Counted from the first letter of the stretch, positions 9,969 through 41,230 are shown. The stretch is DNA of 64,000 nt from an uncultured bacterium (GCA_945829115.1 CALZTP010000003.1:1-64000); one strand, 5' to 3'. Notes: generated from the letters alone by a model not told the origin. A program made the numbers and translations.

Positions 9969-11714
9969 TTATAATGCTACTTTCTTACCGTTTATGATGT
10001 ACACTCCACGACCCAAAGACTTCACGTCACCATACACCCTTCTACCGTCAAGAGTATAAATAGCGTTAGCCGTTGTATTGACATCGATGATTGTATTTTC
10101 AATTCCAGAGATAATGTTTGAGTCACTTCCACCCATGAAATTGAAGTCTATTGTACCGTCAGGGTTCTGCACGATGTCTGTTATTGGCTTGCCCATGGTA
10201 GCCTTTCCGTTATAGAGCTTTGCGAACGGCTTTGACGTATCTGTGAGCTGGTTGTTTCCATTGCAAGGATAGAGAGAATAATCGCCACCGTCATCGTAGT
10301 TCCAGTTCTGCTCAGAATCGGCATTAAAGAAGGTGAATCGCTCGTGGTCGTTGTCCCAGTCTTTGTAAGCATCTCCATACATACCGCTATAGTTCAGGAT
10401 GGAGTTTACGGTGTTTCTGTTCCAGAGCGACTGCTTATAGTCACAGTGCATGATCATGAGACCGCTGGTAGGGATATGAGCATCAAAAATATCTGTACCC
10501 TTCTGACGGTTTTCCAGGATGTAATATTCATTTGAAAAGTCGTCATTGTAGATCACGAAAGCCATACCATATTGTTGCCCCGTAGCAGGAAAGTTCTTTA
10601 CCGTAGTTGGCTCGTTGAGAACGATAGGTTCCAGCCATCCAGCCACCCATTTCTCGTAAGCAGTATAGTTAGCAGGAGAGAAAGCGTTGTTGTTGTAGTT
10701 TCCAGAAGACATAATGTCGTAGTGTCCCATTCCATACTGCTTTGTATACTGAGTATCGTAAAGGTCTACGAGTCCGAGGCAATGAGAGAACTCGTGACAA
10801 ATAGAACCTATTCCGTCAACATTCTTTCTTGCACCATTTGCAGTCTTGTTGTATGTATACTCACTTGAACAAGCATATGTGTTCACCTTCACCCCATTAT
10901 CTTTTGTCTGGTAAGAACTGTTATAGTCAGAGGTGGTGAGCTGTCCCTTGTGAGGCCAGATGAGGTTATCGTCGTTAGAGACATGCTGTCCGAGGTCAGC
11001 ATATATTACATACACCTGGTCGGCATAACCGTCACCATCCCAGTCGTAGTTTGTGAAGTCCACCTCCTCATCAGCCATTTGACATGCGAGAGCAATCATC
11101 TCTCCACATTTCTTGTCTTGACGTCCATTGGCATCTCCTCCGTAATAAGCATATCCGTTAGGCATATCATAAGGTCCTACGACGTCAAAGGTAAGGTCGA
11201 AGAGACCGTTGCTTTGTATATAGTAATAATCATGTACACTGCCTACATGTCCGCTTGTGCTGGTGTAGTTCTCATTGTTTGCGACCTTGTTATAGTAGCT
11301 TTTTCCATGGAATTTATTGAACTTCTTGTCAGAGAAATTCACGAGGATGATAAGTCCTTTCTTCTTTCCAACAAAAGCACCTGCTGCACCTCGAGTCTTT
11401 GCTGCTCGTGTTTTCTGCATAATGGCTACATTTGCCTGAGTCTCAGCAATTCTTCTTGGCTCAGCATCTTTCAGTAGCTTTTGAACATCAATGCTCTCAT
11501 ATGTAGTGTCTCCAGCAACACGTTTGTAGCACTTGCCGTCTTCGGCTTGCCACCAGCTGCAGAATTCGTCTCCTCTAAGTTCAGCGACCACTTTTTTCCC
11601 GTCTGCGAGAGTAAGTGTAGTCTTAATGCCTCTCATGGCAGGCACTGCATTGGCAGAAACAGCGAAAGAGCTGCAAGCCAAAGCGATGAGTAAAGATTTC
11701 TTAAGTATGTTCAT
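9969..11714 (-). CDS. Secreted M6-family metalloprotease with C-terminal sorting-like tail
   Basis: HEFSHCLGLVDLYD zinc motif, signal peptide, C-terminal YTLDGRRVYG…GVYIINGKKVAL. Confidence 0.85.
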   Translation of the reverse strand: MNILKKSLLIALACSSFAVSANAVPAMRGIKTTLTLADGKKVVAELRGDEFCSWWQAEDGKCYKRVAGDTTYESIDVQKLLKDAEPRRIAETQANVAIMQKTRAAKTRGAAGAFVGKKKGLIILVNFSDKKFNKFHGKSYYNKVANNENYTSTSGHVGSVHDYYYIQSNGLFDLTFDVVGPYDMPNGYAYYGGDANGRQDKKCGEMIALACQMADEEVDFTNYDWDGDGYADQVYVIYADLGQHVSNDDNLIWPHKGQLTTSDYNSSYQTKDNGVKVNTYACSSEYTYNKTANGARKNVDGIGSICHEFSHCLGLVDLYDTQYTKQYGMGHYDIMSSGNYNNNAFSPANYTAYEKWVAGWLEPIVLNEPTTVKNFPATGQQYGMAFVIYNDDFSNEYYILENRQKGTDIFDAHIPTSGLMIMHCDYKQSLWNRNTVNSILNYSGMYGDAYKDWDNDHERFTFFNADSEQNWNYDDGGDYSLYPCNGNNQLTDTSKPFAKLYNGKATMGKPITDIVQNPDGTIDFNFMGGSDSNIISGIENTIIDVNTTANAIYTLDGRRVYGDVKSLGRGVYIINGKKVAL

Positions 11715-11849
11715 CTGTCGATATGATTTATATAAGTGAATAAATTATGCGTAAATTGACAGTAAGTGACGTATGTTTATCACGGAAAGATTATTTCTAA
11801 CTAATGTTTCCCCTATAAGAAAAAGAGAAGTCTAATTAAAGCGAAGAAT

Positions 11850-11890
11850 GCGTGAAACGCCGGAATTGATTAAAACCCGGAGTTTCACGC
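11850..11890 (-). terminator. Hairpin terminator after the SusCD-associated lipoprotein gene
   Basis: gcgtgaaac…gtttcacgc with additional ccgg/ccgg pairing. Confidence 0.65.
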
Positions 11891-11914
11891 TTGAAATTAT
11901 AGTATTCTAAGAGA

Positions 11915-13774
11915 TTACTTTCTCAGAGAAGTTGCAGTGAAAGGAACAGGAGCCCACTTATTCCATGTTCTCTCCTGCTTTCTCAGAGCAGCCGCCTTGC
12001 GTGCTTTTGCAATAGCGTTAGCGAGCTTAGCAGCTTCTGCACGCTCTTGTACTGCGAAGAGGTCACGCTCGCAAGCGTAGCAAGCACCGTCAGGTGTTGC
12101 ATAGAAGTTATGGAATACGTAGTAGTCCTTTGACTCAAGATAATATGAGTGGAAGTTGTTCTTCAATACCGCTTGCGCAAGATCTGGCATATCGATGATA
12201 TCCTTACAGAATGTGTATGTATCGTACACTCGGATTGCTTCACCATCGCCATTTACGAAACCACTCTCAATACCATTAGTGATAATCTGTCCGTTATCAA
12301 GCATAGAGAAGTATAGCGGAGTACCCTCGAAAAGGAACGGATCAAGATAGAACTTTGTTGGGTCGCTATCGTTCTGATAGAGAGTAGCCTCACCCTCAAC
12401 CATCTCTTCTGTCAATACGCCGAGAGCATCTGAGAAGAAGAGTTCGCTGATGTCCTTATTACCGATTTGGAATATTCCAAGTGCAACAGGAGTCCAAGTA
12501 TCTGCTCCATCCTTGCTTGAGCGCAGGTCAACGGAAACAGCAGTATATGTCTGTCCTATGCCCGTTTCGTCGCAAGCAACGAGAATGAAGAAATGCTTTC
12601 CAGATTTCTCATAAGTAACAGAAACCTCACCACTTTCAGAAACAGAAGGAACCTCAAGAGTTCCGTTTATCATTCCCTCAAGAACTGCAGACGGATTATC
12701 ACCAGAAGCAACGAGAGCATATTTTGCGGTAACGACATCAGCACCGAGAGTGACATTGAATAGAGCATGGTCTACATCTTTAGTGTCTGTGTATCGTCCG
12801 GTGTATTCAGCAGCGAGAGCGTAGTCAGCAATCTTTGAACCTGGGAGAGCAACTGCAGTCATACCGTTATTACCAGCATACTGAGGATTACCTGGGTTAT
12901 AGTCAGCCATTTCTATAGTCATAGACTTCTCTGGCATTGTTATCACACCATTCTTCAGAGTACCGAAGATGTCTGGTCTATTCTGCTTAACTACATCCAA
13001 TGTATATCCGTTGTCAAGGAAGAACTGAACAAGACTTCCGACTGTAATCTGACCATATCCATAGTTAGCCTCTGAAGCATAAGAATGGAAGTATACAAAG
13101 TCAGGGTCAGTAGCATCAATTACCCACCAGTAATCCTTTGAAGTGTCATAATCTTCATCCCCATTTAAAGGATAAGCCTTTCCATAGACATTCTTCATAC
13201 GATACATACCAGGGTTCACAATGCTCTTCTCCATATATACGCTATATTTCACGTTAGGAACATTGAAGAACGTTGTAATACAGTCTTCGCGATAGTAGCC
13301 GTAAGAATTATTCTCATTGAAAGGAACCCACTCTGTAGCACCTGCTTTGAATGTGAATGCGCTTACACCGTAAGTAGTGTCAATGCCCTCACCTCCAACA
13401 GTGATTGTACCACCAGTGTACTCACCGTATACGAGTTTCTCTGGGTCGTAAGAGATTGTGATAGTAGCAACGTTCTTTCCATCAGCGAATGTTGCAGATG
13501 CAGGAACGGTATAGATGTTTCCCTCTCCAGGAGTAAATGTGAGAGGCACAGTGAGTTCACCATTGGTGTCAACACGATATATGTTGACGTCGAAACTGCT
13601 TGATTTCTTATCAACAGTAATTGTTGTCGCTTGGTCTTTGTTGAAGTACACCTGAGAAGAAGGAACAGTAGCCTGCTCATACTCGTACTTATCGGTACAA
13701 GAGCTGATTCCAAAAGCAACGAGGCTAATCAATACCAGCGAGAAAAGTTTTGTTATCTTTTTCATTGTTGTCAA
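11915..13774 (-). CDS. SusCD-associated surface lipoprotein (SusE/F position), unknown ligand
   Basis: Signal peptide with ISSC lipobox, downstream of susC/susD; beta-rich N-terminus; basic Ala/Lys/Arg-rich C-terminus. Confidence 0.7.
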   Translation of the reverse strand: MTTMKKITKLFSLVLISLVAFGISSCTDKYEYEQATVPSSQVYFNKDQATTITVDKKSSSFDVNIYRVDTNGELTVPLTFTPGEGNIYTVPASATFADGKNVATITISYDPEKLVYGEYTGGTITVGGEGIDTTYGVSAFTFKAGATEWVPFNENNSYGYYREDCITTFFNVPNVKYSVYMEKSIVNPGMYRMKNVYGKAYPLNGDEDYDTSKDYWWVIDATDPDFVYFHSYASEANYGYGQITVGSLVQFFLDNGYTLDVVKQNRPDIFGTLKNGVITMPEKSMTIEMADYNPGNPQYAGNNGMTAVALPGSKIADYALAAEYTGRYTDTKDVDHALFNVTLGADVVTAKYALVASGDNPSAVLEGMINGTLEVPSVSESGEVSVTYEKSGKHFFILVACDETGIGQTYTAVSVDLRSSKDGADTWTPVALGIFQIGNKDISELFFSDALGVLTEEMVEGEATLYQNDSDPTKFYLDPFLFEGTPLYFSMLDNGQIITNGIESGFVNGDGEAIRVYDTYTFCKDIIDMPDLAQAVLKNNFHSYYLESKDYYVFHNFYATPDGACYACERDLFAVQERAEAAKLANAIAKARKAAALRKQERTWNKWAPVPFTATSLRK

Positions 13775-13784
13775 TTTTTTAAGG

Positions 13785-13879
13785 GGCAGGTTCTGAAAAT
13801 CCGTTTCTTTTTCAAAAAGGCTATGATTGTTCGTTGAAGAATCTCAGCTATTCGGAGAGCGAGATTTTCAGCACCTGCC
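13785..13879 (-). promoter_or_regulatory. Long-range hairpin in the susD / lipoprotein intergenic region
   Basis: ggcaggttctgaaaatc (13785-13801) pairs with gattttcagcacctgcc (13863-13879), 16/17. Confidence 0.5.
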
Positions 13880-13888
13880 ATGACTTGT

Positions 13889-15523
13889 TTATTCTGACCA
13901 AGGAGTATATGCGCCAGTAGGATCAGGATTGTTCATACCCACGAGAGCCTGGTTGTTTTGAGACTCAGTACGTACAATCACGTAGTTCATCCAAGCCGGA
14001 CGTCCGTTAGTATTAAATCTTGCGAGATCATCGTCCCAGTTAGTACCAGAGTATCCACGTGTCACGCTGTAGTTCAGACGTTTGATATCAAAGAATGTCT
14101 GTCCCTCGCCCCAGAATTCTACACGCTTCTGGAAAACGATCTCCTCAATGATATCGTCCTTAGAAGAAACACGAGTAGCATAATAAGGGTCGCGATACTG
14201 AGCCATGAAGCTCTTGAGGAGTTCAAGACCAGCAGCTTCGTTCTGATGAGCTGCAGCCTCAGCCTCAATGAAGTACATTTCCTCAACACGCATAATTGGA
14301 TAGCATGAAGCAGCACCAACGGTGTTAGTAGCCACATTTCCCTCATTAGGACGGAACTTGAGAGCTGTGTAAGGAGGCATCATCTCGAGGAGAGCATCCT
14401 TCACTTCAGGAATCATGCGAGTCTTCTCACGGAGATTAGATCCCTCTGGAGCGAGGAACTGCACCTTTCTGAAGTCAGTCTCGCTGATTCGCTCATACAT
14501 ACTCTTATCCATCTGTGAGAACATTCCTGTAGCAACACCTGTATAACCAAATGTTGTCTGGTTAGAACGCCATGAAGTCCAGTTAATGATACCCGTCTTC
14601 ACAGTGCCATCCTCACTTGTCTGCTTAGCTCCCCACATCCACTTGCTGATATCGTTGAAACCAGTAGTGATGTTGTTGCAGTCTTCTTCTGTCATAGGAG
14701 CCACGCGAGCCTGATCAATTGCCTTGCGAGCATACTCCTGCGCCTTTGCGTAATCTTCTACCCACATGTATAGACGTGCCTTAAGTCCGTATACGCAAGC
14801 GAGGTCAGGAAGGGTGTTGTCGCTGAAGCTTTTGAGGTTTTTAATATATTCCTCAGCATCATTGAGGTCTTTTTCTATGAATTCCTTCATCTGCTGACGT
14901 GTAGCACGAGGATTGTTCTTAGCAGCAGTCTGATCCATATCAGCTGTTACGATAGGTACAGTAAGGTTGAGCACATCATTACCATCAACATTGATATTAG
15001 AAGTCTTGTCGTTTGGCAAGAACTCGTAGCAACGAGCCATGTCAAGATAGATAAGCGCACGGTAAGCAAGACCAGCACCGAGGTATCCAAGCTGAGTAGG
15101 TGATGCTGTCTCTGGATTTACAGAGCCCACCATAGTATTACAAGCAAGAACGAAAGCGTTGTAATAATTATAGATGTACTGTGTAATGAGGTATCCTTCA
15201 CCCTGAGCGAGGTTCTCACGCCAAGGAGTGAAGTGGTCGTAACCAAGGTTTGAGTGCATATAGTCACCTGTCTGTACGTCACGGATAGTCATCATTGCAC
15301 CGTATCCGAATGCGAAGTGTCCGAATCCGTCAGGATCTGCAACATTGAAGTTTGATGGCAGAGCCATGAGTGCCGCCTCTGCAGAAGAGGTAGACTGCTG
15401 AATCTGAGATTCAGTTGCCACGGTAGTAGGGAAAGTCTCTTCAATACATGAAGTCATGGAAGAGAGTGACACCGCAGCAATCGTCATGCCCATTGTATAT
15501 TTTAATATTTTCTTTGTTTCCAT
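13889..15523 (-). CDS. RagB/SusD family nutrient-uptake outer membrane lipoprotein
   Basis: SusD architecture, MTSC lipobox, directly downstream of SusC. Confidence 0.92.
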   Translation of the reverse strand: METKKILKYTMGMTIAAVSLSSMTSCIEETFPTTVATESQIQQSTSSAEAALMALPSNFNVADPDGFGHFAFGYGAMMTIRDVQTGDYMHSNLGYDHFTPWRENLAQGEGYLITQYIYNYYNAFVLACNTMVGSVNPETASPTQLGYLGAGLAYRALIYLDMARCYEFLPNDKTSNINVDGNDVLNLTVPIVTADMDQTAAKNNPRATRQQMKEFIEKDLNDAEEYIKNLKSFSDNTLPDLACVYGLKARLYMWVEDYAKAQEYARKAIDQARVAPMTEEDCNNITTGFNDISKWMWGAKQTSEDGTVKTGIINWTSWRSNQTTFGYTGVATGMFSQMDKSMYERISETDFRKVQFLAPEGSNLREKTRMIPEVKDALLEMMPPYTALKFRPNEGNVATNTVGAASCYPIMRVEEMYFIEAEAAAHQNEAAGLELLKSFMAQYRDPYYATRVSSKDDIIEEIVFQKRVEFWGEGQTFFDIKRLNYSVTRGYSGTNWDDDLARFNTNGRPAWMNYVIVRTESQNNQALVGMNNPDPTGAYTPWSE

Positions 15524-15542
15524 ATTATATTCTCTTATTCGA

Positions 15543-18500
15543 TTAGAATGTTACAGTTATACCACCAGAAACAGTACGTACTGGACGATAGTAAGCATTT
15601 CCGCTACCACCTGCGATGCTCTGACGAGGGTCGAGACCCTGACGCTTAGACCATGTCCAAACGTTGTCAGCGACAGCATAGAGACGAATCTTCTGTAGTC
15701 CGAGGCTCTTTATCCAGCTCTGGTCGAATGTATATCCAAGAGTGATATTTGCGAGAGAGAGGTAAGATGCAGATATAAGGAATCGGTCGCAAGCAGAGTT
15801 CATATACTGGTCGTTAAACTGCATACGTGGTATATTGCTGTTTGGATTCTCTGCAGAGTATGCGTTGAGGATATCTGCATGGATTGCCTGACCACGGCTG
15901 AGTCCCATAAGGCTTGCATAAGAGCTATCGTATGTCTGACCACCGAGCTGATACTGGAAGTCAACAGAGAAGTCAAAGCCCTTGAAAGAAACAGAGGTAC
16001 CGAAACCGCCGTATACGTCAGGCATCATGTCGCCCATGAGGTAATCGTCAGCCTCTGAGCTCTTCTCTACGAGCATCTGACCAACAATCTTACGCTTCTT
16101 CACGCCAGCGTAGTTATCGTCAACCTTATTTCCATCAAGGTCATAGTACTGGTCGTGAGGTTTGCCTTCTGCGTCCTTATACTTTTCGTATACGTTCTTG
16201 TAGTAGAGAGCAACACCAACCTTAGAAGGGTCGAATTTAATTTCCGCTTTCTCATCTGTTGGATCGTAAGTCAATTTATAGTTATCCTCTGTATAAACGC
16301 CAGCATACTTCTTTGTCATGTAAGTGTAACGGCTCTCGCCCTCCATGAAGAAGTAGTTGCCAGAAGAGTAACCGAGACCGATACCATCGCGATACTGTTT
16401 CTTGCGCTCTTCAGAAAGCTTAGTAATCTCGTTGTGGTTTGTTGTAAGGTTCGCATATACGTTCCAAGTGAGGTCACGTGTAGAGATTACGTCAGCGTGG
16501 ATGTCGATTTCAACACCTCTGTTGATCATGTTACCAACGTTATCGTAGTATCCTGTCCAACCGAAAGAAGGAGGCAGTGGTACCCAAGAGAGCATGTCGG
16601 TAGTACGGTTGTTATAGTACTCGATACCACCCCAGATGCGGTGCTTGAGGAAAGAGAAGTCGAAACCGATGTTGAACTTCGCATTCTTCTCCCAAGAGAT
16701 GTCAGGGTTACCAAGAGAGCTTGGGTTCAGCGCAACCTGATCGTTAGAGTTGTCGATAGAGAAGTACTTTGTATATTGATAAGAACCAATCTGGTCGTTA
16801 CCATTCTCACCGTAAGAAGCCTTGAACTTCAGCTCGTCAACCCAGTCAACATCGAAGAACTTCTCCTTGTTGATGAGCCAGCCGCCACCGAATGACCAGA
16901 ATGTTCCCCACCAGCTATCCTTATGGAAGCGAGAAGAAGCCTGGCGCATCACAGAAACAGAAGCGAAGTAGCGCTCGTCGAAGTTATACATAGCACGGCT
17001 GAGCCATGACTCTGTATTATACTCAGACATAGAAGAGTTACCAGATTTCATTACAACGGCACCTGCGAGCTCCTTGTTGTCAACCGAGAACTGGTTGCTC
17101 TTGGTTGCCCAGAGGTCATAGCCGTAAGAACGGTAGTACTCATGACCGAGCATAACCTCGATGTCGTGCTTTCCGAAGATCTGTCTCCAGTTGATACGCT
17201 GCTGGTAGTTGTAAGACCATGTTCTTGCATGCTCCTTAGACACCATACCCTTGCTGGCAACATATTGTCCGAAGAATGGGTTTGTTGTAGAAGTGAAACG
17301 GCTCTCGTTGAGATAAACGTTATTGATAGAAGTTACGGTGAATCCGTAAGGGAGAGTGAGCTGTGCAGTACCTGTTCCATTGAATGTATTACCCTCTGTG
17401 TTGCTTGTGTTGAGCTGGTTGTTAGAGAGAGGGTTTGCATTTGTAAGGAACGGACGTGGGTTTGTGACATATCCCTCACCGTAGTCGTAACGCACGAGAC
17501 GAGAAGTTGGGTCGTAGATAATGTTTCCATCAGCGTCACGGATATAGAGCGGATAGATAGGAGCAACATTCATGAATGCGAAAACGTTTACAGAAGAGTT
17601 GCCATCACCTTCCTCGCCGAGGTCATTATAGTTGTAGTGACCGTAAGACATGTTACCAGAGAGCTTGAGCCAAGACTTCACCTGATAGTCAGCTTTGAGA
17701 CGACCAGTGAAACGCTTGTAGTCAGAAGCTGCTGTGATACCGTCGTTGCTGAGGTAGTTAGCAGAAGCATAGAATGTTCCACGCTCTGTAGAGCCAGTAG
17801 CTGTTACGGTATATTCCTGACGGAGGCTGTTGTTGTATAGCTCGTCCTCCCAATCGTCTGGAAGAAGGAGGAATGTTCCGTTCTTTGTTGTGCTGAGACG
17901 ACCGAGAGTAGCATTAGGGTTTAGCTTGCCGTTCTTACCGATGAGAGTCTGTCCCTCTGGAAGGGTATAAACATTATATCCAAGACCATAAGAACTTGTG
18001 CTGCAGAGGTTGTTGTTTGCCCATGCCCACGCCTGCTCGTCAGACATCTTTCCTACGTTCATAGCGTAGTTTTTAATGCCCTGGAACCAAGTCTCATAGT
18101 AGCCAGCAGGATCCTTAATGGTCTTATACTCAGGCACAGCTTTTGAGTTTGAACCCCACTTTGCGTCAAAGCTGATGGTAGCATCCTGACCACGCTTTCC
18201 TGCCTTTGTTGTGATAAGGATGACACCGTTACCACCACGTGCACCATAGAGAGCAGTGGAAGCAGCATCCTTGAGAACCGTCATGCTCTCAACGTCAGCA
18301 GGGTTTATATCATTGAGTGAGCCACCGTAAGGAGAACCGTCGACAACGATGAGCGGATTGTTTCCAGAGTTGATGGAGTTGATACCACGAATACGGATTG
18401 TTGGTGTAGAGCCTGGCTGTCCAGAAGCGCTATTGATCTGCACACCAGAAGCCTTACCTTTCAAGGCGTCAACAGCATTGGTTACCTGCACTTTGCCAAT

Positions 18501-18875
18501 TTCCTTTGAGTCGACAACGGCAGCAGAACCAGTGAAGGCACTCTTTTTCTGAGTACCGTATGCAATTACCATGACCTCGTCAAGAACCTTATCGTCTGAC
18601 GCGAGTCTGATAACCATGTTGTTCTTGGCGCGAGCCTCAGTCGTTTCCATACCTACGTATGAGAATACGAGTGTTGTGCCTTCTTTTACGTTTACGGTAA
18701 ACTTACCATGTACATCTGTAACGGCACCTTGGTTTTCACCTTTCACTTTTACTGTTGCTCCGATGACAGGCTCGTTGTCGGCCTCCGAAACCACAGTACC
18801 AGTGATAGCTGACTGTGCCCAAGCGGTGATTGTCGCTAATGTGCACAGAAGCATCAATGTGAGTTTTCTTTTCAT
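15543..18875 (-). CDS. SusC/RagA family TonB-dependent outer membrane transporter
   Basis: ITGTVVSEADNEPVIGATVKVKG CarboxypepD-like domain, plug ALKGKASGVQINSASGQPGSTPTIRIRGINSINSGNNPLIVVDG. Confidence 0.95.
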   Translation of the reverse strand: MKRKLTLMLLCTLATITAWAQSAITGTVVSEADNEPVIGATVKVKGENQGAVTDVHGKFTVNVKEGTTLVFSYVGMETTEARAKNNMVIRLASDDKVLDEVMVIAYGTQKKSAFTGSAAVVDSKEIGKVQVTNAVDALKGKASGVQINSASGQPGSTPTIRIRGINSINSGNNPLIVVDGSPYGGSLNDINPADVESMTVLKDAASTALYGARGGNGVILITTKAGKRGQDATISFDAKWGSNSKAVPEYKTIKDPAGYYETWFQGIKNYAMNVGKMSDEQAWAWANNNLCSTSSYGLGYNVYTLPEGQTLIGKNGKLNPNATLGRLSTTKNGTFLLLPDDWEDELYNNSLRQEYTVTATGSTERGTFYASANYLSNDGITAASDYKRFTGRLKADYQVKSWLKLSGNMSYGHYNYNDLGEEGDGNSSVNVFAFMNVAPIYPLYIRDADGNIIYDPTSRLVRYDYGEGYVTNPRPFLTNANPLSNNQLNTSNTEGNTFNGTGTAQLTLPYGFTVTSINNVYLNESRFTSTTNPFFGQYVASKGMVSKEHARTWSYNYQQRINWRQIFGKHDIEVMLGHEYYRSYGYDLWATKSNQFSVDNKELAGAVVMKSGNSSMSEYNTESWLSRAMYNFDERYFASVSVMRQASSRFHKDSWWGTFWSFGGGWLINKEKFFDVDWVDELKFKASYGENGNDQIGSYQYTKYFSIDNSNDQVALNPSSLGNPDISWEKNAKFNIGFDFSFLKHRIWGGIEYYNNRTTDMLSWVPLPPSFGWTGYYDNVGNMINRGVEIDIHADVISTRDLTWNVYANLTTNHNEITKLSEERKKQYRDGIGLGYSSGNYFFMEGESRYTYMTKKYAGVYTEDNYKLTYDPTDEKAEIKFDPSKVGVALYYKNVYEKYKDAEGKPHDQYYDLDGNKVDDNYAGVKKRKIVGQMLVEKSSEADDYLMGDMMPDVYGGFGTSVSFKGFDFSVDFQYQLGGQTYDSSYASLMGLSRGQAIHADILNAYSAENPNSNIPRMQFNDQYMNSACDRFLISASYLSLANITLGYTFDQSWIKSLGLQKIRLYAVADNVWTWSKRQGLDPRQSIAGGSGNAYYRPVRTVSGGITVTF

Positions 18876-19275: not shown

Positions 19276-22200
19276 CTATTCCTTCACCGGTTCAAGATAT
19301 GGTATTTCAAATACGAATCGTGCTCCATGATCTACATTTGGAGTATCGTCAGGATAGCGTATGTCAAGATAACAGCGCCCGTTCATCTTCTCAGCAATAA
19401 TGCGACAGATGCTCAGTCCAAGTCCTGTTCCCTGCACAAATTTCTCGAGTTTCACGAATCTCATGAACACTCTGTCTCTTTGCTCTGGTGGCACACCAGT
19501 ACCAGTATCTGCCACTGCAAACCTTATTGTTGGCACCCCATTTATAGACGTTCTCTTCACACTGATTGTTATGGAGCCTTCCACGATATGCTTTATGGCA
19601 TTCGTGAGATAGTTTATCAATACCTGCACGACACGCCTTCCATCGGTGTATATCTCAAAGTCGTCTGGGAGTGAAGACTTATATATCATCTTCACCCCTG
19701 CGGGGACACGATATTCAACAGTAGCCATTGCTCCAGCAACGATATCCTTCAGCAACTGGTTTCTGCATTCGATGCTATAGGTACCGCGTTCAACGTTTCC
19801 GATGTTCACAATATCCTCAATAAGCATGTTCAAGAGAGAAGAGTTATGCTCCACATGTTGTGCGAATTTCTCTCGTTCCTCGTTTGTGAACGTATCTTCA
19901 GGGAGTGCGAGTAGCTGTGCGAAGCCCGCAATAGCATTTAGCGGAGTACGTATTTCGTGCGACATGTTCTGAATGAACAAGTCCTTTCTCTCTGTAGCCG
20001 CAATTGCCTCTGCTCGTGCCTCAGAGATTTCTCTGTTTTTCTTCGCCAGTTCCTTATAGAGTTTTTTGTTTCTCACCCTCCATGCATAGAGCATCGCCAT
20101 GAACACAACAATTCCTACGATGGTGATCACCGCCACAGAGATGTAGAGCACCATTCTCTTTTTCTCTGCCTGCACATTATCGGCAACCGCCTTTGCCGCC
20201 ATGGTGTTTATTGCGATCTTCTGGCTTTCTATCTCCGCTCTCTGCAACTGGAGTTCACGCTGATGGGCATAGTCAGCCATCTGTGCATTGCGTAGTTTCA
20301 CCATCTGCTGCTCCTGCGCCAAGAGCATCTCCTGCTCTTGAATAGCAATTTGGTTTTGCTGTTCTTCAAGCATGAGCGCCTCGAGTTTCTCTTGAGAGAG
20401 TTGCCTTGCGAGTGAGTCTGTTCCATACATCTTTCTCATCGCCTCAAGGTCGGAAGCCATTATTCGGCTCGTTTCTTTTGCTCTTGCAGCAATGAGCGAG
20501 TCACGAATGTCGAGTGCAATCTTATAGAGGTGGTAACGTTTTGCCAAAGAAAGTTGGAAACGGTATCTCACCTTTGGGTCAGCCTCCTTCCCCATCTCCT
20601 GTAGAGCACGAGGGATATCGTTTTTGAAGACATACTTGTAAGAGCGTGCAATATGCTCACGAGGGAAAACAATTGGGAACGACTTCTGCAGCGAGTCACA
20701 CTTTTCGATATACCGGAAATACTCCTCCCTATTTAAGTTTGTACCAGCTCTGAAAGCTTTTTCGAGATAAGCGACACACTTTGCCCCCATATTATTAGCT
20801 GTTTTCACAGCAAGGTTTAGCAGAGAGTCACCGTAATGTGAGTACACCGCACCCTTTGTATGTCTGAAGAGTTCGATATAAATCTGACTGACATCCTGAT
20901 AAATATTCAGTTCCTTATTTATTTCCAACGCCTTATTAGCATTTTCCAGCACTCCTAACGGCTCGTCACGCTCACGACTGACAATCATTCTTGCATACGC
21001 ATCATAGAAAGCCGCCGTTTTATCTTCGTTGTTTTGTTTCTCTGTGTCAAGAATGTCGAGAATCCTCAAAGCGTTGAACATATCCTGCTCTTTCAGTCTC
21101 CGTTCTATCTCCTCCTTGTAGGTATAGTAATAGAACCTCATGATGCCATATTGCTTAGCAACTTTTCTCAGTTCTTCACCCGCCTTTAGGAATTCACTCC
21201 ATGTTCCATGCATATTTTGTGAGCGCATACGCATACAAAGCAATAGGCAATGCCCTTTCATGTCAAGACTTTGTTCTGCCTTTTTGATAGATTTGTCAAG
21301 AAGTGGAAGAATAAGTTTTGGCTCATAATTGCATTTGTATGCAGAATCCATTACCTGTATGACATACGGCTTCAGTTCTTCTGTTGCGACCTTTATGATA
21401 TAATCTTGAGGGAGAGCACCATTCACCATCTTTGGCATCACCGTCTCTGGCATCACCACCTCTGCGGTATCTCTTTCGAGCGCATAAGACTGAGAATCAG
21501 AGAAATACTCAGAGAGAGCATTCCTGTTTGCATATCCCACAGAAGAGAGCACAAGGAAGAGACAGACAACTGCCAGGGAAGCCTGATATTCCCGTCTTGC
21601 CTTTTCAATACGCTCATATTCACTTTCCGTAGACTCATGCGTGACATAGTCGTCTGGATTGAGAATAGAATTGATATTGTCTATGAGCATGGTGCTCTTC
21701 TCCTGCACGAGCATTCCATACTCAAAGCGTTCATCGTCTGTTAGTTTTCCGTTAGGGTCAGCGAGAATCTTTGCATATTCCGAAACCTGCTGTAACGGAA
21801 TCTGCATTTCCTTCGACATATTCTTTATGAAAGAGTCACGCCCCTTCGAAGCATCCTCCGCCTCTTGACGAAGCTTGTCTTGCTTTGCTGTCAGCGCACT
21901 CATGTTCTTCGTCATTCTTGAGCCAGATCGCACCCAAACCCACATGAAGATAGCAGCCAATGCCAACACAACGGTGAGAATGGTTATCAGCACAAAGCCT
22001 AATGTCACGTGCAGCTTCTCCTCCTCGGCAGCCTTCACCTCATTCTCTATCTTTCTGTGAGACATCTCCACATTCTGCTGCCTAAGCTTTGCACTGTCAA
22101 GACGCATGGTATACATTCTCGCCCTTTGTCTCTGAAGGAGCTTCTTCGACTCATTTTCAGCACGTTCCGATTCAAGGAGTATTTGGTTTTGCAGAAGCAT

Positions 22201-23070
22201 ACGACGTTTGATATCAGCTTTTGCCATTGCAATCTCGTAGTTCTCGGTGAATCGCGCATAGTCGATATTCGACTTCTCTACGAGAGCCTCTATCATCGTT
22301 GCATTTCTTGTCTTGTCGTCGTAACGCTCTGAACGGCGGTAATAATCGGTAGAGTCGGCATAGAGAATTGCCTTGCTCCAGTTTCCGAGAAGACGGTGAA
22401 TGTTCAAGATGCAAGCCACCTTATCTTTTGCATTCTGAATCTTATTGAGGTGTATGATGGCAGAATCAGGCTGATTTGAGAAGATATATCTATATGCCTC
22501 AGCACGCATATAGAAGAAATAATGCTTTTGGATATTCTCCTTCGTGGCATATTTCAAATATTGACTTCTTGCAAGTTCGTAGGTCTTTTCAAGATTCTTC
22601 CTTCCAGCATAGTCAGCCATACACACGTTTGCCTCAAATATATCCTCCTCTGTTTTTGCCCTGTCGAGTGCTTCATCGAGATAATAATATCCTGATGCCA
22701 CAGAAGGGTTATAGTCATACAATGCTTTGTATAACAGAGCGTAAAGGTGTGAGATGCTCTTTCTCACAGGCAGTTGCTTGTCTATCTCAAACGCTTTGAA
22801 GGCATATTCCTTCGCCCCTTCATAATCACCATATCCCACACATTGCTCACAAAGAAGACTATAGCATGAGAAAAGTTCCCTCTGGTTTTTTGCCTTCAAT
22901 GCAGAGTTGTAGGCGTCGAGAATACCCTTTAGTGTAGAGTTTGAAAGAGTGTCTCTATAAGTCATTTTTGTACTTTGGGCTACGATAACACCCTCCCTAT
23001 CCACACCCTGTGAGCTGAGCCACGGAGCGAGAATCGCAAGTATAGCCATTAAGTACAATTTTTTTTTCAT
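19276..23070 (-). CDS. TPR-sensor histidine kinase with two sensor/TM/HisKA-like units; first HisKA degenerate
   Basis: Second unit: NMSHEIRTPLNAIAGF, HATPase YLTNAIKHI, ADTGTGVPPEQRDRVF, GTGLGLSICR. First unit: NMSKEMQIPLQQV with no HATPase after it. Confidence 0.9.
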   Translation of the reverse strand: MKKKLYLMAILAILAPWLSSQGVDREGVIVAQSTKMTYRDTLSNSTLKGILDAYNSALKAKNQRELFSCYSLLCEQCVGYGDYEGAKEYAFKAFEIDKQLPVRKSISHLYALLYKALYDYNPSVASGYYYLDEALDRAKTEEDIFEANVCMADYAGRKNLEKTYELARSQYLKYATKENIQKHYFFYMRAEAYRYIFSNQPDSAIIHLNKIQNAKDKVACILNIHRLLGNWSKAILYADSTDYYRRSERYDDKTRNATMIEALVEKSNIDYARFTENYEIAMAKADIKRRMLLQNQILLESERAENESKKLLQRQRARMYTMRLDSAKLRQQNVEMSHRKIENEVKAAEEEKLHVTLGFVLITILTVVLALAAIFMWVWVRSGSRMTKNMSALTAKQDKLRQEAEDASKGRDSFIKNMSKEMQIPLQQVSEYAKILADPNGKLTDDERFEYGMLVQEKSTMLIDNINSILNPDDYVTHESTESEYERIEKARREYQASLAVVCLFLVLSSVGYANRNALSEYFSDSQSYALERDTAEVVMPETVMPKMVNGALPQDYIIKVATEELKPYVIQVMDSAYKCNYEPKLILPLLDKSIKKAEQSLDMKGHCLLLCMRMRSQNMHGTWSEFLKAGEELRKVAKQYGIMRFYYYTYKEEIERRLKEQDMFNALRILDILDTEKQNNEDKTAAFYDAYARMIVSRERDEPLGVLENANKALEINKELNIYQDVSQIYIELFRHTKGAVYSHYGDSLLNLAVKTANNMGAKCVAYLEKAFRAGTNLNREEYFRYIEKCDSLQKSFPIVFPREHIARSYKYVFKNDIPRALQEMGKEADPKVRYRFQLSLAKRYHLYKIALDIRDSLIAARAKETSRIMASDLEAMRKMYGTDSLARQLSQEKLEALMLEEQQNQIAIQEQEMLLAQEQQMVKLRNAQMADYAHQRELQLQRAEIESQKIAINTMAAKAVADNVQAEKKRMVLYISVAVITIVGIVVFMAMLYAWRVRNKKLYKELAKKNREISEARAEAIAATERKDLFIQNMSHEIRTPLNAIAGFAQLLALPEDTFTNEEREKFAQHVEHNSSLLNMLIEDIVNIGNVERGTYSIECRNQLLKDIVAGAMATVEYRVPAGVKMIYKSSLPDDFEIYTDGRRVVQVLINYLTNAIKHIVEGSITISVKRTSINGVPTIRFAVADTGTGVPPEQRDRVFMRFVKLEKFVQGTGLGLSICRIIAEKMNGRCYLDIRYPDDTPNVDHGARFVFEIPYLEPVKE

Positions 23071-23148: not shown

Positions 23149-23889
23149 TTATTTGAAATACATCTTTCTCATCAAACCGTCATAGCCAGGGATATCAAGA
23201 GAGATGGTATCTCCAGAAGAGATTTGAGAGGCAGGGATAGAGAAATATGTCCTTACGGTGTAATACTCCGGTACTCCATTTCTGCTATGCAGCAAGCGGT
23301 AGTGGAAATTCTTTCCTGTGGGAGACACGCAGACAGTATCTTCAAGCAATGCTACAGAGTGACTGTTCTCCGAACCCTCTTTTGTTCCCGTTTTAATATC
23401 TATTGTAAGATTTAGGAACGTGCCGTTTTTCGCCATCCATCCACTGACAAAGGTCACAGGGTCTTTGGCATCGAGCACCTTTTTCAGTTCCTCTTTCGTT
23501 CTCGGCAGAAGAACGAGCACCTGCTTTGCAGAGAGTGGCAATGCCTTCCCCCCTTCCATTCTGTAATAGAGCATAGCCCTATAAGAAGAGTCAGCCTTCT
23601 CTGCCCATTTCACCTTCACTGGAGAAGAGAAGGGAAGTTGCTCGTCAGCGTCTGTAACTGCCGACTTCACCTTCGCCATAAGGTCGGTCTCTAAGAGGCA
23701 CATCTCTGCTTTCACTCCCGACAAATCAGTCTCCTCATCGTTCGAACAGGAAGAGAGAACTGCTGCAAGGGTAAAGAATGCAAGGCATAACGGCATGCCT
23801 GCAATCACTGTGAAAGTACCTGCCTTTCTGGTGAGCAGGAAAAGATGCTTTAAAATGTGTATAGGGGTTCTTTTTCCAGACAGTCTCAT
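23149..23889 (-). CDS. NigD-like lipoprotein
   Basis: LSSCSNDEE lipobox; C-terminal layout similar to the second NigD-like gene at 31556-32275. Confidence 0.65.
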   Translation of the reverse strand: MRLSGKRTPIHILKHLFLLTRKAGTFTVIAGMPLCLAFFTLAAVLSSCSNDEETDLSGVKAEMCLLETDLMAKVKSAVTDADEQLPFSSPVKVKWAEKADSSYRAMLYYRMEGGKALPLSAKQVLVLLPRTKEELKKVLDAKDPVTFVSGWMAKNGTFLNLTIDIKTGTKEGSENSHSVALLEDTVCVSPTGKNFHYRLLHSRNGVPEYYTVRTYFSIPASQISSGDTISLDIPGYDGLMRKMYFK

Positions 23890-37933: not shown

Positions 37934-40900
37934 TTATTTCTTCAACATCTTCACACCATTCTGGATTACAAAGCCCTTGTAGTCCTCTGTAACCTCCATA
38001 CCAGCGAGGTTATAGAGCTTGCCAGCCTTGCCAGTCTCTGCATCGATAGCTTCAACAGAAGCAGCTTCGCCAACGAGAGCAGCAGGTCCAAAGCCGCCAC
38101 GACCGTTTGCTACACGCACCTTTGCAGAAGTGATGTCGCCATCAATGGTTAGAGAAGTAGCCTGTGTGATTACTGGTGCCTCACCGTTAATGCTTACGAG
38201 ATATGCCTTTGCCTCTGGCACCTCTGTCCAAGAAATAGAGTGCTTGTCGGCAGCAATGTTTGCTGATGTAGAGAACTGCTTACATGTTGCATCTGGAGCC
38301 CAAGAGCCGTAGATGTTTGCCACAGTAAACTCAGAAGCCTCTTTCTCTGTGAGGATGGTCTCATACTCCTTATTGCCTGTGCTATGTGTGAATATCATTA
38401 CGTTAGAAGCAGGAGAGATCACATTTCCTTCAGCGTCCATAGTGTTATACTCCTTGAAAGAAGAAGCAGCTACGTTCATGCCACCGACAGTGAATCGTGA
38501 TGGAGCGATTGCAGAAGGGTCGAGAACCTTTGTGTTGATGTATGTCGCCTTTGACTCCCCACCCCAAGAACGTGCGAAGTTAAAGGTCTTAGAGAGTGTC
38601 TCAACTGTACAATCGAGGAAGACATATCCCCAGTTGTAGCGGTCGGCAGTTGTTGCAGTGTTGTAAGGAGCACAGATGGTGCATTCGCCATCCTTCTCGT
38701 CCTTTTTACGACTTTCGTTCACGAGCTTCACACGGTTGTAGACAACATTACCGTCACCGCAGAGGTAGTCAACAGTTCCGTGGATCTCTGAATCCTCCCA
38801 GTAGAAGTTCGAAGCACGGTTAGAATAATAGGTGTCCTGATAAGAGAGCATCTTCACATTCTTGCAGATAGTGTTCTGACCCTTATCCTGCAGACAGACA
38901 GCACGACCAGCAGAGCCTGTTCCATAGTAGTCGAGGGCGTTCTGGATGGTGAGGTCTTGAATATAGAGACTGTTTGAAGTGTTCAGAAGGGTTGCGGTTG
39001 TTCCAATTCCCTCGGTTGACTTGTCTGGAGCGTTACGTATGATTGTTCCGTCCATAGACTCACCAATGAGTGAGAGGTTGTTTGCAGAAATAGAAGTGAG
39101 GGCAACCTCTCCGAAGTCGTATGTTCCGTTCGGGAGGAAGATCTTATCGCCTTCCTTAGCAGACTTCAGCACGAGCATGAGGCTTGACGCATCGCCTGAA
39201 GATATGATATAATAGCCTGTTGCCTCGTCTTTCTGCACGAAGTTCTCAACGTTGTAAATCTCCACGCCGTGAACATAAGCAGAAGAAGGGTATGTCACAG
39301 TGAGCTTTGTTGGCTCACCCTCATATTGGAATGAAGCAACAGCGCCATCGCTCTCTGCCTTTCCTTGGAATTCAGTAACTTTATTTCCGTTGGCATCTGT
39401 AACCGTTGCTGTCTGCTCTGGTGAATAGAGGCAGTTCTTAACGTTCACATAGCAACGTCCTGTAACATCGATTGTGAAGCTCTTCAGCTTCCATCCGTGG
39501 TTGTTGTAGTAGCTACCATCGATGCTGATCAGCTCATGGTCTTCAACATACCAGTAGTTCTTTGTAAGGTCGTAGTCGTAGTGGGTGCCTGTTGCAGCAA
39601 CCTCTATAGGAGTAGCATGTGCATAGAGCTTAAGGTCTTCTGTAAGTTCTTTGCCCTCAAAAACTTTCTGAGATGTGTTTGCCTTTCCTGCGAACCATCC
39701 ACGGAATGCCTGTCCCTCAGGCACGGTCACGTCGGCTGATGAATATTTATATTTCAGTTCAGAAGAGCCGTCAACAACCTCTTCTCCAATCTTCTGTCCT
39801 GTTGTGTCGAAATAGGTTACAGTAACTGAAGGAATGTAGTCGCAAGCCTCAGCAACGAAGAACGGACAGTAGCTTCCAAGATTGAAGACGAGTGTTGCTG
39901 GCTTCTCTACATTATATGTATATGGCACACCGTGTGCATACTCTCCGAATTTATTGTCGCAGCCAGCACCGTTGGTAGGAATCTCTATTGTCGCTCCACC
40001 GTCGATAGAGACAGTAGCCTTGTTAGAGTATTGGCAAGCACCGATATTAAATTTCACCGGACCGTCAACAGGAACTGTTATCGTCACGTCGCTATAACCA
40101 TGCTGTGCATCGTGGAAACTACCAGAAGAGATAGTTACACCCTCTGGCAATCCTGTCTCTGGAGCCACCACGGTGTAAGGGTCAGTGCGGAAGTCGATGT
40201 TGAAATCTTTAAATGTTCTTGGAGCCAACTCTACGTTTCCAAGAATCTCAAGCTCCGTCATGTATGCGTTCTGACTTGCGTTGAGGTTATAGAACCACAA
40301 CTGCACGTTCGTTCTATTCACGTCAACAGAAACAGGTGTTCCACTTGCTGGATTTGCAACAGCGTCAGAGACGGTCACCCAGTCGGCATCGCCATCACCC
40401 TTCACCTTCAGTCCCCAGCCACGGTTGCTTCCTGTGGCTGCATGCACAAAGTTCACCTTTGTAACGCTCTTCAGCACAGAGGTCTTGATGTACGGAGTGG
40501 CTGTCTTTGCTGCCATGAGATAACCTGGAGTGATGCACTCTGCTGTGAACTTGGTATGTGTTCCGTCTGGCTTCACCTCTGTCTCCATGAGTGAGAACAC
40601 GAGTTCTTGGTTGTCTGTAGTTGCTTTTGTAACCTGAGTCTCTGTAGTGCTTGACGCTAATGCCTCCCAGTTCTGGAAGTTTGTCTTGAAGATAGATCTC
40701 TCAGCAACAGTTGCTGCTTCTACCTTCTCTACAGAAACCACTGCGCAGTAAGACATTCCTGATATGGTGAGCGTAGTGGCACCACCCTTATAGTTCAGCT
40801 CTGTAAACTTTGTGTGGTCGTTCTTCCAGCAGGTTGCCTCTGGAGTTGCAGATGCCACAACCTTTCCGTTGGAATCTGTTACGGTGATATCACCTGTGCT

Positions 40901-41230
40901 GTATGTACATGTGGCAACAGAGATTTTCACCTTTCCTTCTACAGGCACCACAACCTTAAGGTTTGCAGAGCCATGTTCGCTGTGTGACTTTCCACTAATG
41001 GTAGCCACAGAATTTGCAGCTCCCTCTTCTACTCGTGTCACAGTGCCATTATCAGCAACTGCGATACCAAACGAAAATTCAGTCCACTGAGTTGCCTTTT
41101 CTGTTGCGGTCAGCAGACTCTTCTCGCTATTATCAACGAGAACACTAAAGTTCTTAAACTCTGCCCAAGAGAGCTGTGTTGTCAGCAGCAAGAGACAGGT
41201 CAAGAAGAAAAATTTTGTAAAATGCTTCAT
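37934..41230 (-). CDS. Modular secreted pectinesterase with three N-terminal beta-sandwich-like repeats
   Basis: C-terminal pectin methylesterase motifs (GRAVCLQDKG…YQDTYYSNR…IHGTVDYLCGDG); repeats with CxYS cores; C-terminal tail YNLAGMEV…GFVIQNGVKMLKK. Confidence 0.85.
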   Translation of the reverse strand: MKHFTKFFFLTCLLLLTTQLSWAEFKNFSVLVDNSEKSLLTATEKATQWTEFSFGIAVADNGTVTRVEEGAANSVATISGKSHSEHGSANLKVVVPVEGKVKISVATCTYSTGDITVTDSNGKVVASATPEATCWKNDHTKFTELNYKGGATTLTISGMSYCAVVSVEKVEAATVAERSIFKTNFQNWEALASSTTETQVTKATTDNQELVFSLMETEVKPDGTHTKFTAECITPGYLMAAKTATPYIKTSVLKSVTKVNFVHAATGSNRGWGLKVKGDGDADWVTVSDAVANPASGTPVSVDVNRTNVQLWFYNLNASQNAYMTELEILGNVELAPRTFKDFNIDFRTDPYTVVAPETGLPEGVTISSGSFHDAQHGYSDVTITVPVDGPVKFNIGACQYSNKATVSIDGGATIEIPTNGAGCDNKFGEYAHGVPYTYNVEKPATLVFNLGSYCPFFVAEACDYIPSVTVTYFDTTGQKIGEEVVDGSSELKYKYSSADVTVPEGQAFRGWFAGKANTSQKVFEGKELTEDLKLYAHATPIEVAATGTHYDYDLTKNYWYVEDHELISIDGSYYNNHGWKLKSFTIDVTGRCYVNVKNCLYSPEQTATVTDANGNKVTEFQGKAESDGAVASFQYEGEPTKLTVTYPSSAYVHGVEIYNVENFVQKDEATGYYIISSGDASSLMLVLKSAKEGDKIFLPNGTYDFGEVALTSISANNLSLIGESMDGTIIRNAPDKSTEGIGTTATLLNTSNSLYIQDLTIQNALDYYGTGSAGRAVCLQDKGQNTICKNVKMLSYQDTYYSNRASNFYWEDSEIHGTVDYLCGDGNVVYNRVKLVNESRKKDEKDGECTICAPYNTATTADRYNWGYVFLDCTVETLSKTFNFARSWGGESKATYINTKVLDPSAIAPSRFTVGGMNVAASSFKEYNTMDAEGNVISPASNVMIFTHSTGNKEYETILTEKEASEFTVANIYGSWAPDATCKQFSTSANIAADKHSISWTEVPEAKAYLVSINGEAPVITQATSLTIDGDITSAKVRVANGRGGFGPAALVGEAASVEAIDAETGKAGKLYNLAGMEVTEDYKGFVIQNGVKMLKK

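Follow-up and report, generated by a model that had tools for sequence, protein, structure and literature searches.

A recurrent pairing of an active sensor histidine kinase with a pseudokinase near-copy, found as one fused gene and possibly separated by signal peptidase

A few pseudo-histidine kinases are known, DivL and RcsD among them. In a different setting, the Bradyrhizobium FbcH protein is a fused cytochrome b/c1 precursor that signal peptidase cuts at an internal signal peptide to give two membrane proteins. The Caulobacter pseudo-histidine kinase DivL carries Tyr where the phosphoacceptor His would be, and it controls a different kinase, CckA; it is a separate protein with PAS domains, and it keeps all of its ATPase boxes (PMC4211667). 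RcsD lacks the H-box His and binds RcsC in two-hybrid tests, and some autophosphorylation has been reported for its cytoplasmic part (PMC3762810).

Here, we describe a gene from an uncultured bacterium in which a pseudokinase unit is followed in frame by an active kinase unit. The gene lies in a stretch of 64,000 nucleotides (GCA_945829115.1, CALZTP010000003.1:1-64000), which we call the window. Like the single TPR sensor kinases of the same genus (e.g., in G360 and G319), its product combines a predicted periplasmic sensor, a coiled coil, a transmembrane (TM) segment and a HisKA-HATPase core. Unlike the hybrid two-component systems of Bacteroidota, it has neither a receiver nor a DNA-binding domain but two sensor/HisKA units in series; as no receiver lies in the same chain, it is not a hybrid histidine kinase. 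In the open-access literature that we searched, neither a fused kinase-pseudokinase gene nor a kinase precursor containing an internal signal peptide was described.

Layout of the window gene and homology of its two units

An earlier note on this DNA, made from the sequence alone, had placed a 1264-aa reading frame at 19276-23070, and we recovered the same coordinates, with a single open frame on the minus strand. The motifs also fell where that note had them, with NMSKEMQIPL at aa 417-426, NMSHEIRTPL at aa 1035-1044 and the Lys420 codon at 21811-21813. Hydropathy peaks were found at aa 5-23, 357-375, 496-514 and 973-991. The features of the gene are given below, with a slash marking a predicted cut.

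19276..23070 (-), whole fused gene, pseudokinase unit 1 then active kinase unit 2 (ORF, Pfam, motifs, alignment of the halves)
23002..23070 (-), N-terminal signal peptide or signal anchor, aa 1-23 (hydropathy)
22246..22965 (-), unit 1 sensor, helical and TPR-like, predicted periplasmic, aa 36-275 (helices of a low-confidence model; TPR models in relatives)
22021..22233 (-), unit 1 coiled coil, aa 280-350 (long helix at 256-349 in the low-confidence model)
21931..22014 (-), TM1, running out to in, aa 353-380 (hydropathy; uncharged stretch of 26 residues)
21646..21837 (-), pseudo-HisKA, aa 412-475 (homology to the unit 2 HisKA; E 0.1 alone, relatives above the Pfam cut-off)
21811..21813 (-), Lys420 codon, replacing the phosphoacceptor His (sequence; Glu, Tyr, Phe or Asn in other members)
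21529..21588 (-), junction segment, internal and signal-peptide-like, aa 495-514 (possible SPase I cut after Ala514, SSVGYA/NRNAL; SSVSYA/NRSAL in the orthologue G875)
20491..21408 (-), unit 2 sensor, TPR-like, aa 555-860 (homology to unit 1)
20167..20490 (-), unit 2 coiled coil, aa 861-968 (sequence, alignment)
20077..20163 (-), TM3, aa 970-998 (hydropathy; uncharged stretch)
19795..19986 (-), active HisKA with His1038, aa 1029-1092 (Pfam; motif invariant in 11 aligned double proteins)
19297..19644 (-), HATPase_c with N, G1 and G2 motifs kept, aa 1143-1258 (Pfam 6.7e-21; invariant columns in 11 double proteins)

The AlphaFold2 model of unit 1, built from a two-row alignment, had a mean pLDDT of 54 and is of low confidence. 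Pfam listed no TPR model in the window protein itself, so the TPR label that the earlier note gave its sensors is taken from relatives: TPR models matched unit 1 of G015, G147, G333 and others, and matched G875 weakly.

The two halves of the protein aligned with each other at 80.5 bits (5e-20; 24% over 399 aa), in a range that takes in the sensors, the coiled coil and the TM segment and reaches into HisKA. The coiled coil contributes part of this score, and the HisKA block itself aligns closely. With the curated Pfam cut-offs (26.9 bits for HisKA and 26.4 bits for HATPase_c), the whole protein matched HisKA at 1.3e-16 and 60.8 bits, with 1029-1092 as the best stretch, and HATPase_c matched unit 2 at 1143-1258 with 75.2 bits. 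Having His1038 and both domains above their cut-offs, unit 2 is a class I sensor histidine kinase. Unit 1, with Lys420 for His and no HATPase_c, falls outside that class. The sole HATPase_c stretch that Pfam found in the protein was the one in unit 2, in keeping with the earlier reading that no HATPase follows the first HisKA.

The HisKA of the window's unit 1, taken alone, reached only 13.1 bits and stayed under the cut-off, whereas that of relatives passed it (G828, 7e-10; G296, 1.6e-9; G147, 5e-15). Because the halves align so well and the first units of relatives pass the cut-off, the likeness is not due to chance, and the HisKA similarity at aa 410-475 on which the earlier proposal depended is real. 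Unit 1 thus belongs to the HisKA superfamily by homology of its DHp hairpin, with its own score below the cut-off. The proposed fusion of two related kinases, the first lacking both phosphoacceptor and ATPase, is supported by the homologous halves, by Lys420 and by the missing HATPase.

Several neighboring genes were recorded in passing. The kinase gene is closely followed, on its own strand, by a TonB-dependent receptor/SusD pair and then by an uncharacterized gene and an M6 peptidase (9969-18875, -), a neighborhood that G875 and G828 do not share. A NigD-like lipoprotein gene (23149-23889, -) lies between the acyltransferase and kinase genes and overlaps the former by 4 bp. The gene at 37934-41230 (-) encodes a protein of 1098 aa in which a pectinesterase domain occupies 689-972; at 1e-5, Pfam matches nothing in its first 680 residues.

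Fused, reversed and split pairs in relatives

The first half of the protein, and then profiles of the double proteins, served as queries against genomes of the same genus. Including the window's, 14 genes with the pseudo-then-active layout were found in 12 sampled genomes. In 13 of the 14, the unit 1 His is replaced: by Tyr in eight, Phe in two, Asn in one, Lys in the window and Glu in G875. The single remaining His sits in a broken motif, SFGHKVTEPM. In unit 2, NMSHEIRTPL is intact and its His kept in 14/14. A Pfam scan of the first units of ten relatives returned no HATPase; read directly, those of G103, G147, G333 and G104a carry a degenerate ATPase remnant with no recognizable N or G boxes. 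A gene that reads as argS adjoins 8 of the 14 double genes, and an acyltransferase-ddl neighborhood is common to the window gene, G875 and G828. One genome, G154, has two different pseudo-active double genes in tandem (L108, 4160-11334, -). Outside the genus, no pseudo-active doubles were found when a profile of these proteins, which would miss reversed and split forms, was run against 393 genomes of the order.

The earlier note had held that two separate intact genes at this place in relatives would point to an assembly chimera. The relatives are fused too, and the same layout in independent genomes rules such a chimera out. An assembly or sequencing artefact of any kind that joined two genes is scarcely credible; the window genome is indeed a draft of 142 contigs, but the fused layout recurs in 12 sampled genomes, and G875 and G828 share the acyltransferase-ddl neighborhood as well. 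In the three nearest relatives examined at that locus (G084, G149 and G168), there was no kinase at all and hence no split pseudo-active pair.

In a maximum likelihood tree of the individual units, both units of the window protein, G875, G828 and G296 grouped together (99/99), and within this group the first units were monophyletic, as were the second units. The other ten double genes formed separate first-unit and second-unit groups. A single clade of all first units was rejected (AU test, P = 0.0014), and the simplest reading of the tree is at least two separate duplications, with the upstream copy becoming the pseudokinase each time. The first-unit and second-unit subtrees had much the same branching, which is the expectation if the units were inherited together.

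When the window protein is compared with G875, sensor 1 shows 54% identity and sensor 2 shows 53%, whereas the pseudo-HisKA reaches 76% and is the best-conserved part of unit 1; in unit 2, the active HisKA has 89% and the ATPase 85%. Since dN/dS was saturated for most regions of this pair, we used G333-G104a, in which synonymous sites are not saturated. In that pair, the active HisKA had a ratio of 0.079, and the linker and pseudo-HisKA taken together had one of 0.097. By these sequence measures, the pseudo-HisKA is under purifying selection; the identity and the low ratio together argue that it is selected rather than inert, and the description of the first segment as inert in the earlier note is not supported. 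They bear equally on the idea that unit 1 is a functionless, decaying duplicate tolerated since its frame stayed open. The loss of the catalytic residues and ATPase and the fast divergence of the unit 1 sensors would fit such a leftover. However, the frame has remained open across deep divergence in two clades, the pseudo-HisKA is conserved above the sensors at a dN/dS of about 0.1, and the His loss is always restricted to one partner. We regard this idea as very improbable.

As a control, we counted the phosphoacceptor residue in other kinases, with three truncated doubles (L010, L130 and L131) counted as singles. His occupied the position in 88 single-unit cases, and the exceptions led us to reversed and split forms. 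Both came to light in loci retrieved for other purposes and do not make up a systematic sample. In G111 and G154 (both H to Q), G274 (H to K) and G076 (H to R), the order is reversed, with the active kinase first and a TPR pseudokinase second. At one orthologous active/pseudo locus, G111 and G154 have a single fused gene, and G103, G104 and G015 have two genes that overlap by 4 bp. Measured against G111, the split genes are 64-75% identical over the active part and 50-70% identical over the pseudo part, and their pseudo partners have K, L, or an H without its acidic neighbor. Split pairs also occur in two other families of the order, with a 4-bp overlap and H to T in G058 and a 6-bp gap and H to K in G475. 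The loci are as follows.

L187 5697-8639 (-), L248 2754-5717 (+), L249 3386-6369 (-), L250 3325-6323 (+), L251 2927-5937 (+), fused or split orthologous locus of G111, G154, G103, G104 and G015
L183 2379-6490 (-), L253 2558-5671 (-), split active-then-pseudo pairs of the two other families, H to T and H to K
L184 2940-7112 (-), L254 2066-6277 (-), long fused kinases of about 1400 aa, active unit first and pseudo unit second, H to K and H to R
L111 5464-9854 (-), contrast pair of G319, adjacent TPR kinases with a 4-bp overlap, both His intact and no pseudo partner

Over all forms, 21 of the 23 pseudo units seen lack the His, and the other 2 lack the acidic residue beside it. Since relatives keep dead/live pairs, whether as one gene or as two, the comparison suggests that the dead copy still has a regulatory job. 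Two stand-alone pseudo-histidine kinases, in which the ATPase motifs are apparently kept, were also met (L186, 4513-5292, -; L185, 5099-6973, -). One of them has 259 aa, no TM segment and H to Y; the other is TPR-like with H to N.

The junction between the units and a proposed mechanism

The stretch that links the two units of a fused gene is the counterpart of the downstream partner's signal peptide. The fused junction of G111 reads RLATVALLLLATFGSYA/KTTEEIKVDSMRKEA and the downstream signal peptide of the split G103 reads MRRHILTLVLCFISSLCTYA/QEPEKIKVDSMRKEA, the slash in each being a predicted cut only. Among the 14 pseudo-active genes, the uncharged stretch of the junction has a median of 14 residues (range, 7-18), compared to medians of 15 for N-terminal signal peptides, 22 for TM1 and 21.5 for TM3. 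An SPase-I-like motif, [AST]x[AG]Q, follows the junction in 9/14 and follows TM1 and TM3 in 0/14 each, against a background of 2.4%; these counts are not independent because the 14 members are related. On these grounds, aa 496-514 of the window protein looks like a retained signal peptide more than an ordinary TM helix, which makes two chains possible where the earlier note saw two sensors in one polypeptide. An internal translation start for unit 2 was considered and rejected, as the 25 codons before the junction of the window gene hold no start-like codon and none occurs at a conserved place.

The strict cleavage motif is limited to the larger, mostly argS-linked clade. The window protein reads GYA/N at this place, G875 reads SYA/N and G296 lacks a good site, so that some members may not be cleaved. 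A recent fusion could also simply still keep a signal-peptidase motif. The product may be a single uncut chain, i.e., a two-sensor kinase that crosses the membrane repeatedly and uses the pseudo-HisKA as a cytoplasmic dimerization or allosteric block, an alternative to the cleavage step only. The one open frame in 14/14, a consistent topology and the lack of a clear site in G296 agree with a single chain, and the conservation of the junction between the window protein and G875 (73%, compared to 41% for TM1 and 44% for TM3) fits a functional TM segment too. Against it, the junctions are short and signal-peptide-like in all members, a cleavage-like motif follows many of them and never TM1 or TM3, and the same kind of pair is found as two genes elsewhere. 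We give the uncut chain a little under an even chance. Two products are favored by the existence of split orthologues and by the likeness of the junction to a signal peptide, and on this sequence evidence the question of two chains stands about even.

Sequence comparison establishes the homology of the units, the catalytic loss in unit 1, the intact unit 2, the repeated evolution of the arrangement, the purifying selection and the existence of separate, overlapping-gene pairs. The explanation that we consider probable is a tandem duplication with in-frame fusion. A TPR-type sensor histidine kinase would have been duplicated in tandem and its copies fused in frame. The upstream copy would then have lost its phosphoacceptor and ATPase and been retained, together with a periplasmic sensor of its own, as a pseudokinase with a regulatory role, leaving the downstream copy as the only catalytic unit, acting via His1038. 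The pseudo-HisKA may pair with or sit beside the active HisKA dimer, or it may dock a response regulator, and the signal from sensor 1 would set the kinase/phosphatase balance of unit 2. Less certainly, the junction would serve as an internal signal peptide cut by SPase I, after Ala514 in the window, so that one gene gives two membrane proteins at 1:1, as the split relatives do with two coupled genes.

In its widest form, this proposal describes a two-component polyprotein. A kinase and its dedicated pseudokinase would be joined by the downstream signal peptide and cut by SPase I into two membrane receptors at a fixed 1:1 ratio, with such pairs recurrent in Bacteroidales in both orders and passing between two-gene and one-gene states. 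We would put this at even odds.

The window genome has 10 HisKA and 13 receiver matches. As the earlier note had found for the window, Pfam matched no receiver domain (Response_reg) anywhere on the window's contig, and since none of the 13 lies there, the partner regulator is encoded elsewhere. A variant modeled on DivL would have the pseudo-HisKA bind a phosphorylated regulator and feed back to unit 2. DivL, in which Tyr takes the His position, acts in this way (PMC4211667), and Tyr is what most of the double proteins carry there (8/14). The window protein, however, has Lys, no ATPase domain in unit 1 and no known regulator, and DivL keeps its ATPase boxes. This variant seems unlikely.

Comparison with known systems

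What sets these genes apart is an active sensor kinase repeatedly tied to a dead copy of itself, through at least two duplications, in both orders and with counterparts in the form of two coupled genes. They offer a comparative system for what a dead kinase contributes and for how two sensors are read by one catalytic core. They also allow one to ask if a bacterium can obtain two receptors by having signal peptidase cut a single precursor. FbcH is a bacterial case of such a cut, with the differences that its parts are respiratory proteins, not sensors, and that cleavage of the window protein is only predicted.

Among pseudo-histidine kinases, DivL likewise has a non-His residue at the HisKA phosphoacceptor position, and in DivL this arrangement is kept for regulation. 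Unlike DivL, unit 1 of the window protein has Lys at that position, no ATPase and a predicted periplasmic sensor, and it lies in frame with an active near-copy; the DivL type, defined by Tyr at the His position together with ATPase motifs, does not include it. RcsD is a separate phosphotransferase with an HPt domain, whereas the window pair is fused and unit 1 has no HPt match; Pfam scans of the window protein and its relatives found no HPt family. What unit 1 shares with RcsD is the form of a kinase-resembling membrane sensor without the H-box His, and RcsD physically partners an active kinase, RcsC. Judged by its sequence, the window protein resembles DivL and RcsD in outline and has the defining features of neither.
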